This document shows, in pieces, positions 16,362 through 26,194 of a DNA stretch of 33,365 nt. Within the stretch, counting starts at the first letter, position 1. Each line of letters begins with the position of its first letter. Source of the stretch: Vulcanimicrobiota bacterium (GTDB taxonomy: Bacteria > Vulcanimicrobiota > Vulcanimicrobiia > Vulcanimicrobiales > Vulcanimicrobiaceae); assembly GCA_030041115.1 (NCBI GenBank), contig JASHOM010000220.1, positions 1 to 33,365 on the forward strand, written 5' to 3'. The notes beneath the pieces are model-generated. The model searched no databases and was not told the origin of the DNA. It was given only the letters and a program-made list of their open reading frames with translations. The position numbers and the translations under genes are program-made.

Positions 16362-17057
16362 GCGCAAGAGCCGAATCGACCCGGCCGACGTTTCGATGTC
16401 GACGCGTTGCGCCGCGCCGCCGTTGACGTTGCCTTCGATCGTTTCGGAGCTTCCTTTTGACGTGCCGCGCAGGCCGAAATCGGTGAACAGCACGCCGTTG
16501 CCGGTATGCAGGCGCACGGCGAAAGCCGCCTTGGCGCTGATCCAAACCTGGATGTCACCGTGACGCGTGGAGAAGTTCAACGTGCCCGGCCACTGCGTCG
16601 CACCCATCATCACGGAGAGGTTTCCGGCGCCGACGGCCGCCTGCGCGTAGCCCGGAAACTGGAGCGTGACGTTGCCGCGGGCGGCAACGACGCGAGCATT
16701 CCCGGTGATGTCGGTCACGTTGACGTCCCCCCGCTGCGACTGCACGACCAGATTCACGCCGTCGGGAACGCGCACCAGAATCGAAGCGTAGGCCGCCGGC
16801 GCTTTGACGACCACGCCGAGCGGCGCTGCGACGAGCCGCGGCGCAGGCGGAGGCGTTCCTTTCGGCAACGCGGTCGCCGCAACCGTGAAGAGATCGCGGC
16901 GTTGGCCGGCCTCCGGCTGATACACGTTCAAGGTGCCCGCGCCGATTCTCACGGCGATCGACGTTCCCGGCTTCAGGATTCCGATCGTCGTAACGTAGGG
17001 TGACGGATTGCTGCATGCCGTCAGGGCCGCGAGGAGAAGAAGCAGGCCGAATCTCAC
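16344..17057 (-). CDS. Lipoprotein with DUF4097-like beta-helical repeats
   Basis: From GTG 17057 (GAAGG seven bases upstream) the product has 237 residues. It starts with a lipoprotein signal, LLLLLAALTACSN, with Cys at about residue 15. The mature part is beta-rich with repeated short turns such as QSQRGDVNVTDITGNARVV, ARGNVTLQF, STRHGDIQVWI and ETSAGSIRLL. Alternating G-[DNS]-[IV] strands of this kind typify the DUF4097 putative adhesin family. Its last 18 bases overlap the 3' end of panE, tail to tail. Function is unknown; an envelope-associated role is likely. Confidence 0.7.
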   Translation of the reverse strand: MRFGLLLLLAALTACSNPSPYVTTIGILKPGTSIAVRIGAGTLNVYQPEAGQRRDLFTVAATALPKGTPPPAPRLVAAPLGVVVKAPAAYASILVRVPDGVNLVVQSQRGDVNVTDITGNARVVAARGNVTLQFPGYAQAAVGAGNLSVMMGATQWPGTLNFSTRHGDIQVWISAKAAFAVRLHTGNGVLFTDFGLRGTSKGSSETIEGNVNGGAAQRVDIETSAGSIRLLRLQPQP

Positions 17058-17193
17058 GTTGCTGCCTTCGCCACCCAATCGTCATGCACCACCGTTCAAT
17101 CGCAGGAGCCTGGAGACGTCCGGCGGCGCGTCGAAGCTCACGGTCGACGCGGTCCGCCGCGCCGAACGCCGGGGGAGGAACAAGAAGAAGAAA

Positions 17194-18482: not shown

Positions 18483-18490
18483 TAGACACC

Positions 18491-18545
18491 TCATCCTGTC
18501 ATCTTGTCATCCTGTCATCTTGTCATCCTGTCATTTGTCATCCTG
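18491..18545. repeat. Tandem octamer repeats TCATCCTG/TCATCTTG
   Basis: Seven near-identical 7-8 bp units occur in a row: TCATCCTG at 18491, 18507, 18523 and 18538 alternate with TCATCTTG at 18499 and 18515, and a shortened TCATTTG at 18531. The array lies directly upstream of the small secreted protein. It grades into TCATCCTGAGCTTGTCGAAG, which resembles an interspersed repeat seen in many high-GC genomes. Confidence 0.85.
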
Positions 18546-18553
18546 AGCTTGTC

Positions 18554-18578
18554 GAAGGGCTGTCGAAGGACGCCCTTC
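18554..18578. repeat. Hairpin within the repeat region
   Basis: GAAGGGC (18554-18560) and GCCCTTC (18572-18578) form a perfect 7-bp stem with an 11-nt loop containing a second copy of TGTCGAAGG. It could end transcription of the doubtful minus-strand frame at 18622-18927 or be part of an interspersed palindromic repeat. No T-run is present on either side. Confidence 0.45.
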
Positions 18579-18621: not shown

Positions 18622-18927
18622 TCAATGCTCCGGCGCGCTCACTGCGATGCCTCGCGGAACGTCGACGTCGTCCAGAATCGATTTCTTCGGGGCGCCGCCG
18701 AACGGATAGAACCGGTAGGTCACGTAGCCTGTGTGCCGGCTACCGACCGGAGCTCCCCGATCTTTTGTCGCATTCGAGCGCCGGGCCGGGCGAGGCTTCG
18801 GCGCTTCCCGATCTTTTGTCGCATTCGAGGACCGGGCCCGGCGAGGCTTCGGCGCTCCCCGATCTTTTGTCGCATTCGAGCGCCTGGCTGACCGAGGACT
18901 TCTGCTCGCCACGCTCGAATGCGACAA
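18622..18927 (-). CDS. Doubtful repeat-containing small ORF
   Basis: A 101-residue minus-strand frame contains three 17-residue repeats built on SNATKDRGAPKPRRA, encoded by the 51-bp DNA repeats, then a non-repetitive tail (GYVTYRFYPFGGAPKK, SILDDVDVPRGIAV). The tail looks more protein-like than the repeats. The first codon is TTG with no ribosome site. Because the repeat period is a multiple of three and lacks stops, open frames occur on both strands, so coding is uncertain. Confidence 0.25.
   Translation of the reverse strand: MSHSSVASRSPRSARRSNATKDRGAPKPRRARSSNATKDREAPKPRPARRSNATKDRGAPVGSRHTGYVTYRFYPFGGAPKKSILDDVDVPRGIAVSAPEH
18759..18911. repeat. Three tandem 51-bp repeats upstream of the tyrosine recombinase
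   Basis: The 20-mer GATCTTTTGTCGCATTCGAG occurs at 18759-18778, 18810-18829 and 18861-18880, exactly 51 bp apart. The first two units also share most of the remaining 31 bp (GGCGAGGCTTCGGCGCT and the flanking CCGGGC run); the third diverges after its first 24 bases. Perfect 20-mer conservation against a drifting spacer suggests the 20-mer is the functional or mobile part. Confidence 0.92.
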
Positions 18928-18948
18928 AAGATTTATTATGTCGCATTC
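18914..18948. repeat. Inverted repeat copies over the recombinase start codon
   Basis: Bases 18914-18932 are an exact reverse complement of 19 bases of the 20-mer (18862-18880), giving a potential 19-bp stem with a 33-nt loop. A further 10-bp part, TGTCGCATTC at 18939-18948, in direct orientation, forms a perfect inverted repeat with GAATGCGACA (18917-18926) around a 12-nt spacer. The second arm covers the last two bases of the recombinase ATG and its next codons. Confidence 0.85.
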
Positions 18949-19876
18949 AGGCTCGAAGAAGGCCTTGGAAAGGCCGGACCCGCTCGTTGCGGATTTGCGG
19001 GGCTATTTGCTGACCGAGCGAAAGCGCAGCCCGCTGACGGTGGCGGCCTACGAGCGCGATCTGGTCGAGTTCGGCCGGTTCTTGCAGGAGGCGCCGGGCG
19101 CGCAGACGCCGCTTTCGCGGGTGCAATCGTCGCAGATCCGCCGGTACATCGCGTACATGTTCGACGAACGCGGCTGGGACAGCCGGACCGTCTGCCGGAA
19201 GCTCTCGTCGATCCGCGCGCTCTACCGCTTTCTGAAGATCACCGGCGTGCTCGAGAACGATCCGGCGGCGGCCATCCCGGGCCCCTCGACGGCCAAACGG
19301 CGCCCGGCCCCGTTGAAGGTCGACGAGGTGATGAAACTGCTGCGGACGTCGCTGGCCGGGCGCAACGATACGATCCGCGCGCGCGACGCGGCGATCATGG
19401 AGCTGTTCTACGCCAGCGGCATGCGCCGCGCCGAGCTCGCCGGAGTCCGGCTCTGCGACGTCGATCTCGCCGAGCGGACGATCCGCGTTACCGGAAAAGG
19501 CAACAAGGAGCGGGTGGTCGTCATCAACCGGGCCGCGGCCGGGGCCATCGAAGCCTACCTGCGGCTGCGTCCGCGCAGCCCCGATCCGGCGCTGTTTTTG
19601 GGACGCAGCGGTAGGGCGCTCACTCCGAAACACGTCTGGCGCATCTTTCGCGCAATTTATCGGATCAGCGGCATCGAAAAGCACGCGACTCCGCACACGC
19701 TGCGGCACTCCTTTGCAACGCACCTGGTCGAGAACGGCGTCGATCTCGAGACCGTCCGCGAGCTGCTCGGGCATGAAAGCCTCGCGACGACCGGCGTCTA
19801 CTTGCAGCTCGCGATGGGTCACAAGCGTCGCGCCTACGACGAGGCCCATCCGCGCGATCGCATGGCGAATCGCTGA
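18938..19876 (+). CDS. Xer-type tyrosine recombinase
   Basis: The 312-residue protein has the length and two-domain layout of XerC/XerD: an N-terminal SAM-like core-binding domain (about 15-105) with SPLTVAAYERDLVEFGRFL, and a catalytic domain (about 125-305). All catalytic residues are present: Arg163 in SGMRRAEL, Lys187 in TGKGNKER, His253 and Arg256 in HTLRHSFATHL, His279 in LGHESLATTGVY and the nucleophile Tyr288. The frame extends upstream through the 51-bp repeats to 18731, but homology starts after ATG 18938, where no Shine-Dalgarno is seen. It may be the chromosome dimer resolvase; XerC versus XerD cannot be decided. The permease gene follows immediately. Confidence 0.88.
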   Translation: MSHSGSKKALERPDPLVADLRGYLLTERKRSPLTVAAYERDLVEFGRFLQEAPGAQTPLSRVQSSQIRRYIAYMFDERGWDSRTVCRKLSSIRALYRFLKITGVLENDPAAAIPGPSTAKRRPAPLKVDEVMKLLRTSLAGRNDTIRARDAAIMELFYASGMRRAELAGVRLCDVDLAERTIRVTGKGNKERVVVINRAAAGAIEAYLRLRPRSPDPALFLGRSGRALTPKHVWRIFRAIYRISGIEKHATPHTLRHSFATHLVENGVDLETVRELLGHESLATTGVYLQLAMGHKRRAYDEAHPRDRMANR

Positions 19877-21108: not shown

Positions 21109-21981
21109 TCAATCGTCGACCCAGTCGCGCGTGAGGTAGAGCCAAAAGGCAAGGCCCGCATACTTTCCGTACCGGACGAAGGCTCGCTGAATCGTTCGAT
21201 CGGCGGCCTGTTTTTTGCCGGCAAGGCGGCGGTATTTCGGGCGCGTCCAGGAGTCGAGCACCAGCCGGCGGTGGCGTCCGAGCAACTGCATGACGTGCGC
21301 CGCTCCGTAGGGACCGATTCCCGGTAACGCCAGCAACTGCCGCTCGACTTCGTCGTCGCCGTACCGCTCGCCGTCCAGAAGCGCTTCCAGATCCAGCTCT
21401 CCGCGAGCGACCGCACGCGCGATCGTCCGGACGTACGGTCCGCGGTAGCCCATGCGCGCCGCGTCGCGATACCAGGGCGCCTTCGTGGCGGCCAAGAGTT
21501 CGGCGCTTGGAAACGCGCCGTCGCCGAGATCCGCCAGCGCGCGCGTCATCCGAATCGTGGCCGACCATGCGCAGTTGGTCGTGCAGATCGTCTTGACCAC
21601 GTCTTCGAAGACGCTCGGGCTCGCCAGAATTCGTCCGGCGCCGCGAGCCGCCCAAGCGAGCGCGGCATCGCCGGCGATCTGCGCGTAAAACGGCGAGAGA
21701 TCGTCTCGAACGCGAAACATTCGCGCGACCGACGACTCGATGGCACTGCGTTCGCGAGGTCGTAGCGACGACGCGCTCTCGACGACGAGCAGCCCGTCGT
21801 TTTCGCGCATCACGATCTCGACCACGCGACCGGCGAGGCGAAATCGCCGCCGGTAGCGCAAGGGGTCCGTTTCGACCGTCGCCGGCGCCAGGCGCGCGCA
21901 TCCGTGCGAGTGGATCGTGCGCGCAAACGAGATCGGCTCGCCGCCGGCGCCTCGCAGCGGCAACTCGCAGAGCGTGCGCAC
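21109..21981 (-). CDS. HhH-GPD family DNA glycosylase (AlkA/OGG-like)
   Basis: The 290-residue product has the SPSVFEDVVKTICTTNCAW motif (121-139) typical of AlkA/OGG-like base-excision glycosylases, the helix-hairpin-helix LPGIGPYGAAHVMQLLG (219-235) and the catalytic aspartate in VLDSW (Asp243). The lysine used by bifunctional OGG1 in the hairpin is replaced by Tyr (GIGPYG), so a monofunctional alkyl-base glycosylase is more likely. It starts with GTG at 21981, 18 bp after the upstream gene on the same strand, and tail-to-tail with the ArsB-like gene. Confidence 0.82.
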   Translation of the reverse strand: MRTLCELPLRGAGGEPISFARTIHSHGCARLAPATVETDPLRYRRRFRLAGRVVEIVMRENDGLLVVESASSLRPRERSAIESSVARMFRVRDDLSPFYAQIAGDAALAWAARGAGRILASPSVFEDVVKTICTTNCAWSATIRMTRALADLGDGAFPSAELLAATKAPWYRDAARMGYRGPYVRTIARAVARGELDLEALLDGERYGDDEVERQLLALPGIGPYGAAHVMQLLGRHRRLVLDSWTRPKYRRLAGKKQAADRTIQRAFVRYGKYAGLAFWLYLTRDWVDD

Positions 21982-23523: not shown

Positions 23524-24831
23524 ATGACCGAGGATGCGCCAGCCCGTCCTGACGGAGCCGAGCGAGTCGACGCAAGCTTTTCCGGAGCCGATCGGCCTTC
23601 CGCGACGATCTACGACACCTGCATCCGCTGCGGACTCTGTCTGCCCTCGTGCCCTACCTATCTCGAAACTATGACAGAAACGTCGGGGCCGCGCGGCCGG
23701 ATTAGTCTCATAAAGGCGGTCGGCGAGTCGCGTCTCGATCTGCGCAGCGCCGGCTTTGCCGAGCAAATGTGGCAGTGCTTGGACTGCCGGGCCTGCGAAG
23801 CCGTCTGCCCTTCGGGCGTTCGCTACGGTCAGCTCGTGGAAACCGCCCGCACGCAGATTCGCCGTGCCGTCGCGTCCGGTGAACCGCCGCGCAAGCGCGC
23901 GATCCGGCGGCTTCTTCTGCACACGCTTTTTCTGCGGCCGCGCCTCATGCGCACCGTCGCGAACCTGCTCCGCTTCGCGCAGCGCACCCACCTGATCGCA
24001 CTGGCCGGCCTCGCGGGCCTCGCGAGGGCGGCGAAGCTGGCTCCGCGGGTCTCGCGCTCGTTCTTCGTCGCAGCCGATCAATGCTTCGAGGCACCCACGC
24101 CGCAAGGCGTGGCGTTCCTGCACGCCGGATGCATCATGCCGTATGCCTTTGCGCAAGTCCATCGGGCAACCGTGCGCATGTTGCAGCGCGGCGGCCTTTC
24201 GGTCCGCGTCCCGCGTGCCCAGGGCTGCTGCGGAGCGATCGCGGTCCACGCCGGCGACATGGACTTCGCGCGCCGGCTGGCCAAACGCAATATCGAAGCC
24301 TTCGAAGCCAGCGGCGCCGACGTCTACGTCGTCAACGCGGCCGGTTGCGGAAGCGCGCTCAAAGAGTATCGCGAGCTCTTTGCGGATGACGAAAGCTGGG
24401 CCGATCGCGCCGCGACGTTCTCCAAGCGCGTCCGCGACGTCACCGAAGTCCTCGACGCGCTCGAGCTTCCCGAGCCTTCACGATCGATCGATGCGACCGT
24501 GACCTATCAAGCGCCCTGCCACCTCGTTCACGCTCAGCGCATTGCCAACGCGCCGCGCCGATTGCTCCGGCGCATTCCGGGGCTGCGTCTGGTCGAGATG
24601 AGCGAAAGCGCGCTCTGTTGCGGCAGCGCAGGCATTTACAACCTAACCGAGCCGGAGATGGCGGATCGCCTCCAGCGCCGCAAGGTCGACGCGATCCGTG
24701 CGACCCATGCAACGATCGTCGCGACCGCGAACCCCGGATGCGCCGCGCAGGTCGCGGCGGGGCTACGCGCAGCCGGCACGGTTGCGACCGTCAAACACGT
24801 GGTGGAGCTGCTCGACGAAGCCTACGGCTAG
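23524..24831 (+). CDS. glcF: Glycolate oxidase iron-sulfur subunit (GlcF/LutA-type)
   Basis: The 435-residue protein has two 4Fe-4S ferredoxin motifs, [14 protein letters not shown] (Cys33, 36, 39, 43) and [14 protein letters not shown] (Cys85, 88, 91, 95). Two cysteine-rich CCG domains follow, marked by [16 protein letters not shown] with [13 protein letters not shown], and by [12 protein letters not shown] with [14 protein letters not shown]. This matches GlcF, which passes electrons from the FAD subunits GlcD/GlcE of glycolate dehydrogenase. Those subunits are not in the window, so a lactate or other 2-hydroxyacid role is possible. It is divergent from mdh and overlaps the STAS gene by four bases tail to tail. 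Confidence 0.88.
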
Positions 24832-25199
24832 ATCGTTGCGCTGACGCGATCGCGCTCGCTGCGGGCGTCTTCGATCGAGTGGTAGACGCAAAAGACCGCG
24901 ATGAGTCCGGTAATGTTGAGCAGCCGCGAGATCGGACCGTCGTTGACGATCAAACGGAAGGCGCCGCCTCGCTCGGCGGCGCGCCGATGGGCACCGATCA
25001 AAACGCCGAGCCCGGTCGAATCCAGGAACTCGATCTGGGTCAGGTCGACGATCAAATCGTTGCTGCCTTTTTCCGTCGCCTCGCTCAGCGCCGCGCGCAC
25101 CGTCGGCGCGGTCGCAAGGTCGAGGCTTCCGCGCAGCTTGAAAACGAGCGCCCCGCCATCCTCGGTTTTCAGCTCGATGCCGAGCTCGTCGTGGGACAT
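24828..25199 (-). CDS. STAS-domain anti-sigma factor antagonist
   Basis: The 123-residue protein is a single STAS domain like SpoIIAA/RsbV. The phosphorylatable serine is Ser61 in DLTQIEFLDSTGLGVLIGA. Such proteins release a sigma factor by binding an anti-sigma kinase when dephosphorylated. The C-terminal 25 residues are slightly longer than usual. No kinase or sigma factor gene adjoins it. It lies 20 bp downstream of the DUF1835 gene on the same strand. Confidence 0.88.
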   Translation of the reverse strand: MSHDELGIELKTEDGGALVFKLRGSLDLATAPTVRAALSEATEKGSNDLIVDLTQIEFLDSTGLGVLIGAHRRAAERGGAFRLIVNDGPISRLLNITGLIAVFCVYHSIEDARSERDRVSATI

Positions 25200-25219
25200 G
25201 TCAGCAGCGGCCTTTCGGG

Positions 25220-26194
25220 CTATGAATGCTTTTCGCCTTGAGGTGCCCGCAGTCGCGGCGCAGCGAAATGCTCCGCATCGTCATCCCAGCGCGTGAGATT
25301 TTCGCCGGCGAGATGCACGCCGCCGATCCAGCGATCGACGGCGTGCTCGTCGAGCCAATCGGCATCGCCCGCGAGCACGCGCCGGCCGAGGGCGGTGGGA
25401 ACGAGGCGGCCCTCTTCTTCTTCTTCGACGAGCGCTCCCTCGCCGGTCGCTAGCTCGTCCAGGATTTTCTCGAAAAGACGCTCGCCCAGAAAGTATGCTT
25501 CTTCGTGCGCTTGAGCTCGCGCGAAGAGCTCCTCGCGCCGGGCCGGCCCTTGCGCGACGGCATGGAGAGCCTGACGCTGCGATCTCGAGAGCCCGTCGCG
25601 TTTCCACGGGTACTCCTCGCAAAGACGCCGCAGCGCGGCCCGCAAGAACGGCAAGCCGATTGCATCCTCTCGCGAGCCCTGGTAGAGATTCGCGGGCGAT
25701 TCCGACGTGAACCGCTCCCAGGCGCGAAGGGCCGATTTGAAAATCGCGGGCGTGGCGGTGCGCCGCTTGGGAAAGAGCGCCGACACTTCGTCGACCGTCA
25801 TGGCCGAAAGATAGTGATCGCTCTGCAGGACCGAAACCCGCCCCGGTTCGAGATCGAGCTCCGACAACGCGGTCAGCGCTTGGAGCAGCTGCAGTTGATC
25901 GTAGAGATCGTGCTCGAACCACAGGACGATCTCGTCGAAATCCGCCGCGCGGCGAAGCTGCGCGTCGCGCCGCTCGAACTCGTGCATCAGTTTGATCGGC
26001 TTGCCGTATCCGCGCGCGGACAAGTACGTCGCGCGCAGCGTGCTGGTCTCTTCGAGCGAAAGGCCGGCCGGCACGGGGCCCTCGTTGAGCGCGTCGCGCC
26101 ATGCGACGTGCGTGCCCAAGATCCCCGCCCTTTTGAGCAAATAGAGCGCGCCGTCGCCATTGGTGACATGGAGCATCGCGGCCGGCCGGCTCAC
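25220..26194 (-). CDS. DUF1835 domain-containing protein
   Basis: The 324-residue product has the DUF1835 start MLHVTNGDGALYLLKRAGI and the family motif IVLWFEHDLYDQLQLLQAL. The C-terminal half resembles the companion DUF3658-like helical region, ending in a section with DDLTRW-like acidic patches. Function is unknown; no membrane segment or signal. GTG 26194 gives 324 residues, while an ATG at 26176 coincides with the usual family N-terminus. Neither has a clear ribosome site. Confidence 0.75.
   Translation of the reverse strand: MSRPAAMLHVTNGDGALYLLKRAGILGTHVAWRDALNEGPVPAGLSLEETSTLRATYLSARGYGKPIKLMHEFERRDAQLRRAADFDEIVLWFEHDLYDQLQLLQALTALSELDLEPGRVSVLQSDHYLSAMTVDEVSALFPKRRTATPAIFKSALRAWERFTSESPANLYQGSREDAIGLPFLRAALRRLCEEYPWKRDGLSRSQRQALHAVAQGPARREELFARAQAHEEAYFLGERLFEKILDELATGEGALVEEEEEGRLVPTALGRRVLAGDADWLDEHAVDRWIGGVHLAGENLTRWDDDAEHFAAPRLRAPQGEKHS

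Follow-up and report, generated by a model that had tools for sequence, protein, structure and literature searches.

A probable single-recombinase dif/Xer module with supernumerary left half-sites in a Vulcanimicrobiota bacterium

Introduction

The XerS, XerH and XerA modules have been reviewed in PMC5357621 and XerL is treated in PMC9765430; statements on these systems refer to the sections of the two papers considered here. In streptococci and lactococci, a single tyrosine recombinase gene, xerS, is located directly beside its site difSL as a module (PMC5357621, in those sections), and the part of PMC6466248 considered gives GAAGAAG as the KOPS of Lactococcus lactis. A half-site array beside dif is not described in the XerS, XerH, XerA and XerL literature as far as covered by these sections of PMC5357621 and PMC9765430, and the literature searched contains no publication linking Eremiobacter* to a tyrosine recombinase or to the resolution of dimers.

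Here, we analyzed a locus from a MAG of Candidatus Eremiobacterota, a little-studied soil phylum; in this locus, a dif-like site overlaps the start of its own enzyme's gene. The window, i.e. the whole stretch of DNA that was analyzed, comprises 33,365 nucleotides (contig JASHOM010000220.1 of assembly GCA_030041115.1). A sequence-only reading had noticed repeated and inverted copies of a 20-mer in front of a Xer-type recombinase gene and had proposed that they could be a region where that enzyme binds or recombines DNA, a dispersed repeat family, or an operator array. We lean towards reading the locus as a terminus-located dif/Xer module with a single recombinase, in which extra left half-sites form an autoregulatory or occupancy array.

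Results

The features around the start of the recombinase gene are as follows.

18748 to 18900, + strand: three tandem 51-bp units with the invariant 23-nt core CCCGATCTTTTGTCGCATTCGAG and drifted GC-rich spacers
18759 to 18778, + strand: supernumerary left dif half-site 1, with TTTTGTCGCAT (18763-18773) as arm core
18810 to 18829, + strand: supernumerary left dif half-site 2
18861 to 18880, + strand: supernumerary left dif half-site 3, which forms an inverted repeat with the dif left arm
18912 to 18933, - strand: inverted copy, i.e. dif left arm plus outer flank, with 21 nt perfectly complementary to 18862-18882
18919 to 18946, + strand: 28-bp dif-like site with left arm ATGCGACAAAA, centre GATTTA and right arm TTATGTCGCAT
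18938 to 19876, + strand: xer, encoding a XerC/D/A-type tyrosine recombinase of 312 aa

The 20-mer GATCTTTTGTCGCATTCGAG is present on the + strand at 18759, 18810 and 18861 with 0 mismatches each, which confirms the three perfect copies at 51-bp spacing described before, and its inverted counterpart matching at 19 of 20 bases was recovered on the - strand at 18914-18933 (1 mismatch); the expectation from shuffling is 0. The partial copy reported at the recombinase start is also real (TTATGTCGCATTC, 18936-18948) and contains the xer start codon ATG at 18938-18940. Likewise, the spacers have drifted around a constant core: 11 of the 51 columns vary among the three units while a run of 23 nt is invariant (P = 0.005 under random placement of 11 variable columns). 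When the whole 2.6-Mb MAG was searched, GATCTTTTGTCGCATTCGAG was found only at the array locus, so that the suggested dispersed repeat family is rejected, and the 16-mer TTTTGTCGCATTCGAG occurs exactly 4 times, always at this locus, the next best match having 2 mismatches.

The inverted and the partial copy together form the 28-bp site, which consists of two 11-bp arms complementary at 10 of 11 positions and a 6-bp centre; the start codon of xer is situated inside the right arm. Each direct repeat is composed of ATC, TTTTGTCGCAT and TCGAG, corresponding to the dif left half-site in outward reading. The direct repeats are thus supernumerary left dif half-sites containing the arm, three centre bases and the outer TCGAG. 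Of the three readings proposed earlier, a region where the enzyme binds or recombines DNA is the one that gained support, and an operator array is a possible function of the extra half-sites. The right arm resembles the XerD arm of E. coli dif (TTATGT...AT). Allowing up to 2 mismatches, the site has no other occurrence in the genome, and a 24-bp pattern searched with up to 3 mismatches has one other place, at 3 mismatches. Inspection by eye of the stretch preceding the repeats revealed no left-arm partner in 11-6-11 spacing, i.e. no second complete dif in the array.

A coding function of the repeat (51 bp equal 17 codons, with an open + frame from 18731 and a - frame at 18622-18927) was considered and rejected, because the 37, 22 and 20-bp spacings in relatives break the frame; the - frame ORF 18622-18927 has no Pfam match. 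The 17-codon units are open in frame with xer over 18731-18937 (+), hence, automatic annotation may give xer a length of 381 aa, with GTG 18731 as the start. Short tandem TGTCATC(C/T) repeats at 18485-18570, which run into TGTCATCCTGAGCTTGTCGAAGG, resemble a dispersed repeat. In G010, related octamers (CTTCGACA, ACAGGCTC and AGGGTGAC) show a predominant orientation to the left of dif (58:7, 40:1 and 29:1).

The Xer protein of the window contains Phage_integrase and SAM_1 domains, and the catalytic R-K-HxxR-H-Y residues are present as read from an alignment with XerD. By the NCBIfam cutoffs it is not an XerC or XerD equivalog (281.1 vs 335.15 bits for XerC, 253.3 vs 329.6 bits for XerD), and it also scores below the cutoffs of XerS (109.8 vs 267 bits) and XerA (209.2 vs 220); it is closer to XerD than to XerH. 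The closest relatives by recombinase are Candidatus Eremiobacterota MAGs. Most genomes encode one full-length XerC/D-type protein, with exactly one match in G005, G010 and G025. Just one XerC/D-type match is seen in several genomes that are among the most complete, and the window's own genome (G000) has one full-length match plus weak partial integrase matches; some other genomes likewise have nothing further than weak integrase matches. A second full-length match was found in G041 and G014; G041 carries a tandem pair of xer genes (L161, G041:C14:4382-8196).

The position of the dif-like site is conserved. The same 11-6-11 site is found at the xer start in genus members and near relatives, and most other Eremiobacterota examined have 11-6-11 palindromes ahead of xer, at a distance of 8 to about 160 bp and in one case at 435. 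The outer arms vary between clades and stay palindromic around an invariant AAA-N6-TT core; arm complementarity is kept through these changes, with 84.5% of cells paired vs 34-53% for slid partners, a count that is inflated by the choice of the distant relatives' sites partly by palindromy. The dif type tracks the Xer tree even against taxonomy (G015/G017; G042/G051/G054). For example, G015 and G017 belong to the window's genus, and their Xer and dif resemble those of G041, G049, G026 and G021. The sequence just upstream of xer in G017 (L276) looks like the end of a glycosylase-like gene equivalent to window 21109-21981, which suggests that the module was replaced in situ. The general rule that dif adjoins xer has exceptions, since no recognisable dif exists just upstream of xer in G025, where it was searched for near xer, and in about ten other relatives, which we count against the dif module.

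Further motifs accompany the site. CTTCT/AGAAG motifs occur on both flanks of dif in many relatives, and the downstream one may be a Shine-Dalgarno sequence in some of them. In the window, a GAAGAAG at 18955, 8 bp right of dif, is directed away from it. G006, G014, G003 and G009 (L050-L053), all without extra half-sites, show a TTGACT at 17 bp from the GATAAA that follows in the left arm of dif, possibly representing a promoter that overlaps dif.

With regard to the orthologues of xer, the dif-like site is present in nearly all close ones, whereas the extra copies are more restricted, giving a mixed answer to the question of whether the array is absent upstream of orthologues. Copies of the half-site 12-mer, all on the + strand, were detected in 7 of the 13 g1-type loci (chance expectation from shuffled motifs about 0.03 per locus): upstream of xer there are three in G000 and in G005, two in G002, and one each in G011, G013 and G008, while G007 has one on contig C53 and three on a second haplotype. 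The G007 MAG (L272, L049; C27 and C53) contains two slightly different xer-dif 5' ends, probably strain haplotypes, and the haplotype with three copies has a larger duplicated unit. No extra half-sites were found upstream of xer in G010, G001, G003, G006, G009 and G014, with G006 covering only 82 bases upstream; their absence from G010, G001 and the G003/G006/G009/G014 clade indicates that they are dispensable. Copy number and spacing (51; 37; 22 and 20 bp; not in helical phase) vary between loci, and within the genus their distribution over the Xer tree is patchy. Candidates outside the g1 clade (G032, G056) were rejected, being one or two weak matches at a chance expectation of roughly one over all loci.

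GC skew proved a weak terminus marker at the high GC content of these genomes, so that the terminus was placed by gene strand and by the polarity of guide motifs. In the window, the guide motifs are placed as follows.

17035 to 17190, + strand: two AGAAGAAG motifs (17035, 17183), left of dif and reading toward it
23911 to 25424, - strand: three AGAAGAAG motifs (23911, 25414, 25417), right of dif and reading toward it

The polarity of AGAAGAAG flips across the site in three genomes with long contigs, G013 (left 11:0, right 0:11), G010 (10:1, 2:21) and G022 (18:0, 0:13), and in the window; in a fourth such genome, the single-contig G025, the flip occurs no more than about 3 kb from xer. In G013 plus G010, the highest polarity among 6-, 7- and 8-mers belongs to AGAAGA, GAAGAAG and GAAGAAGA, respectively, all reading toward the site. 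AGAAGAAG, which contains GAAGAAG, ranks second among 18,474 8-mers by polarity after GAAGAAGA of the same motif family; it was chosen from the sequence of G013 and G010 and then mapped there, therefore the independent cases are G022, G025 and the window. Gene strand has no influence on its polarity, with 42:1 in genes directed toward and 37:2 in genes directed away. The gene-strand bias itself switches or peaks within 3-6 kb of the site in G013 (Fisher 9e-8) and G010 (7e-8), and more weakly in G022 (0.05) and G025 (0.07). Collectively, the site coincides with the replication terminus or the convergence of guide motifs in G013, G010, G022, G025 and the window, the assignment being indirect for the window's own fragmented genome. 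FtsK-gamma is encoded in 53 of 60 genomes including G000.

Discussion

The conserved dif-like site at xer, the switches of motif polarity and gene strand, the presence of FtsK-gamma and the single Xer together make a single-recombinase dif/Xer module of the terminus very probable, and we infer that the 28-bp site in all likelihood functions as dif. One Xer protein would bind both arms of this dif at the replication terminus. FtsK, steered by the polarised AGAAGAAG, would bring together both copies of dif that a chromosome dimer carries, and strand exchange by Xer at the paired copies would release monomers. Because dif overlaps the xer start, dif-bound Xer should also hinder the transcription or translation of its own gene. 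Binding of Xer to the extra half-site copies is likely; each direct repeat would most likely take up an Xer monomer and contribute to a cooperative autoregulatory or occupancy array beside dif. The copies are most likely additional Xer binding sites that influence the expression of xer or the occupancy of dif, while we see about even chances that they in fact exert a regulatory effect.

The nearest half-site copy and the dif left arm form a covarying inverted repeat of 19-30 bp, and this pairing exceeds the 11-bp arm, which goes beyond what a model of protein binding alone requires. It is conceivable that this hairpin acts as RNA or cruciform switch in the leader of xer: if the left arm paired with the right arm instead, the ATG would be buried, hence, the array would control xer translation or attenuation. 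Consistent with such a switch, the seven species that carry extra copies have fold z-scores of -3.9 to -7.8, compared to 0 to -2.9 for those lacking them. In addition, 10 of 23 stem pairs have changed on both sides, among them positions of the centre and the outer flank that the Xer arm does not include, and the differences between nearest copy and left arm are by eye G-U compatible in G011, G002, G005 and G013. However, the leader has no Rfam match, a sigma-70-like promoter was not found upstream, and the distal copies of G000, G002 and G005 are not needed for the hairpin. In the clade without copies, the TTGACT-like -35 places the start near the ATG, so that an xer leader may not exist at all. 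Taken together, we regard the switch as unlikely.

Covariation is also expected from concerted copying of an inverted repeat, and the palindromic dif arms might have promoted template switching and slippage, by which functionless left-arm copies are created and homogenised. The inverted-repeat partner being matched within species past the arm, the tandem 51-bp duplication, the larger duplicated unit of G007 and the patchy distribution on the tree would fit such a neutral origin, but the core stayed constant despite drifting spacers, and copies have been kept in 7 of 13 loci, in one orientation throughout and from the left arm only; we consider it improbable that the array is merely a by-product. 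The hairpin and the neutral duplication are both retained as rivals, because the covariation of the flanks fits them as well. A palindrome at the gene start with extra half-sites would also be compatible with the plain autoregulatory operator of a Xer-like integrase, the true dif lying elsewhere. This appears very improbable, since switches of guide-motif polarity and gene strand coincide with the locus in several genomes and the genome contains no second such site at up to 2 mismatches.

The dif/Xer module with additional half-sites for Xer can be extended to a wider and rather doubtful proposal. Eremiobacterota might possess a self-contained xer-dif module, whose arms diversify together with the recombinase and are exchangeable between lineages. 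In one clade, the half-site array and competing hairpins, which would bury or free the xer start codon, could make dif an Xer-controlled regulatory element and thereby couple the capacity for dimer resolution to the Xer level. If the module is true, it would provide the chromosome-dimer-resolution site, the recombinase and the FtsK guide motif for a phylum that is mainly represented by MAGs, and terminus positions could be read from fragmented genomes. Moreover, the clade-wise change of dif arms alongside Xer represents a natural series for Xer DNA specificity, and the half-site array poses the question of Xer self-regulation through dif.

Among the known systems, XerS/difSL shares with the window the guide motif GAAGAAG, known as KOPS of L. 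lactis (PMC6466248, in the part considered). However, difSL has 31 bp with an 11-bp centre compared to 28 bp with a 6-bp centre, the window dif overlaps a start codon and has extra half-sites, and the protein scores under the XerS cutoff, which together place the locus outside XerS/difSL. XerH/difH of Helicobacter and Campylobacter is likewise based on a single Xer with dif near the gene, but XerH comprises 354-362 aa (PMC5357621, sections considered) vs 312 aa for the window Xer, which is nearer to XerD. The archaeal XerA/dif combines a single Xer with an 11-6-11 palindromic dif, sometimes in xerA/dif modules (same sections of PMC5357621); XerA is reported as FtsK-independent, whereas the clade of the window has FtsK-gamma and KOPS-like motifs. 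The XerL/dif system of Legionellales also uses a single Xer and long uninterrupted arms (PMC9765430, sections considered), although xerL of L. pneumophila is >400 kb away from dif and xer of the window adjoins it. Finally, the 28-bp 11-6-11 layout and FtsK-gamma are common to the window and XerCD/dif of E. coli, which differs by employing two recombinases instead of one, and the guide motif of the window is not GGGNAGGG.
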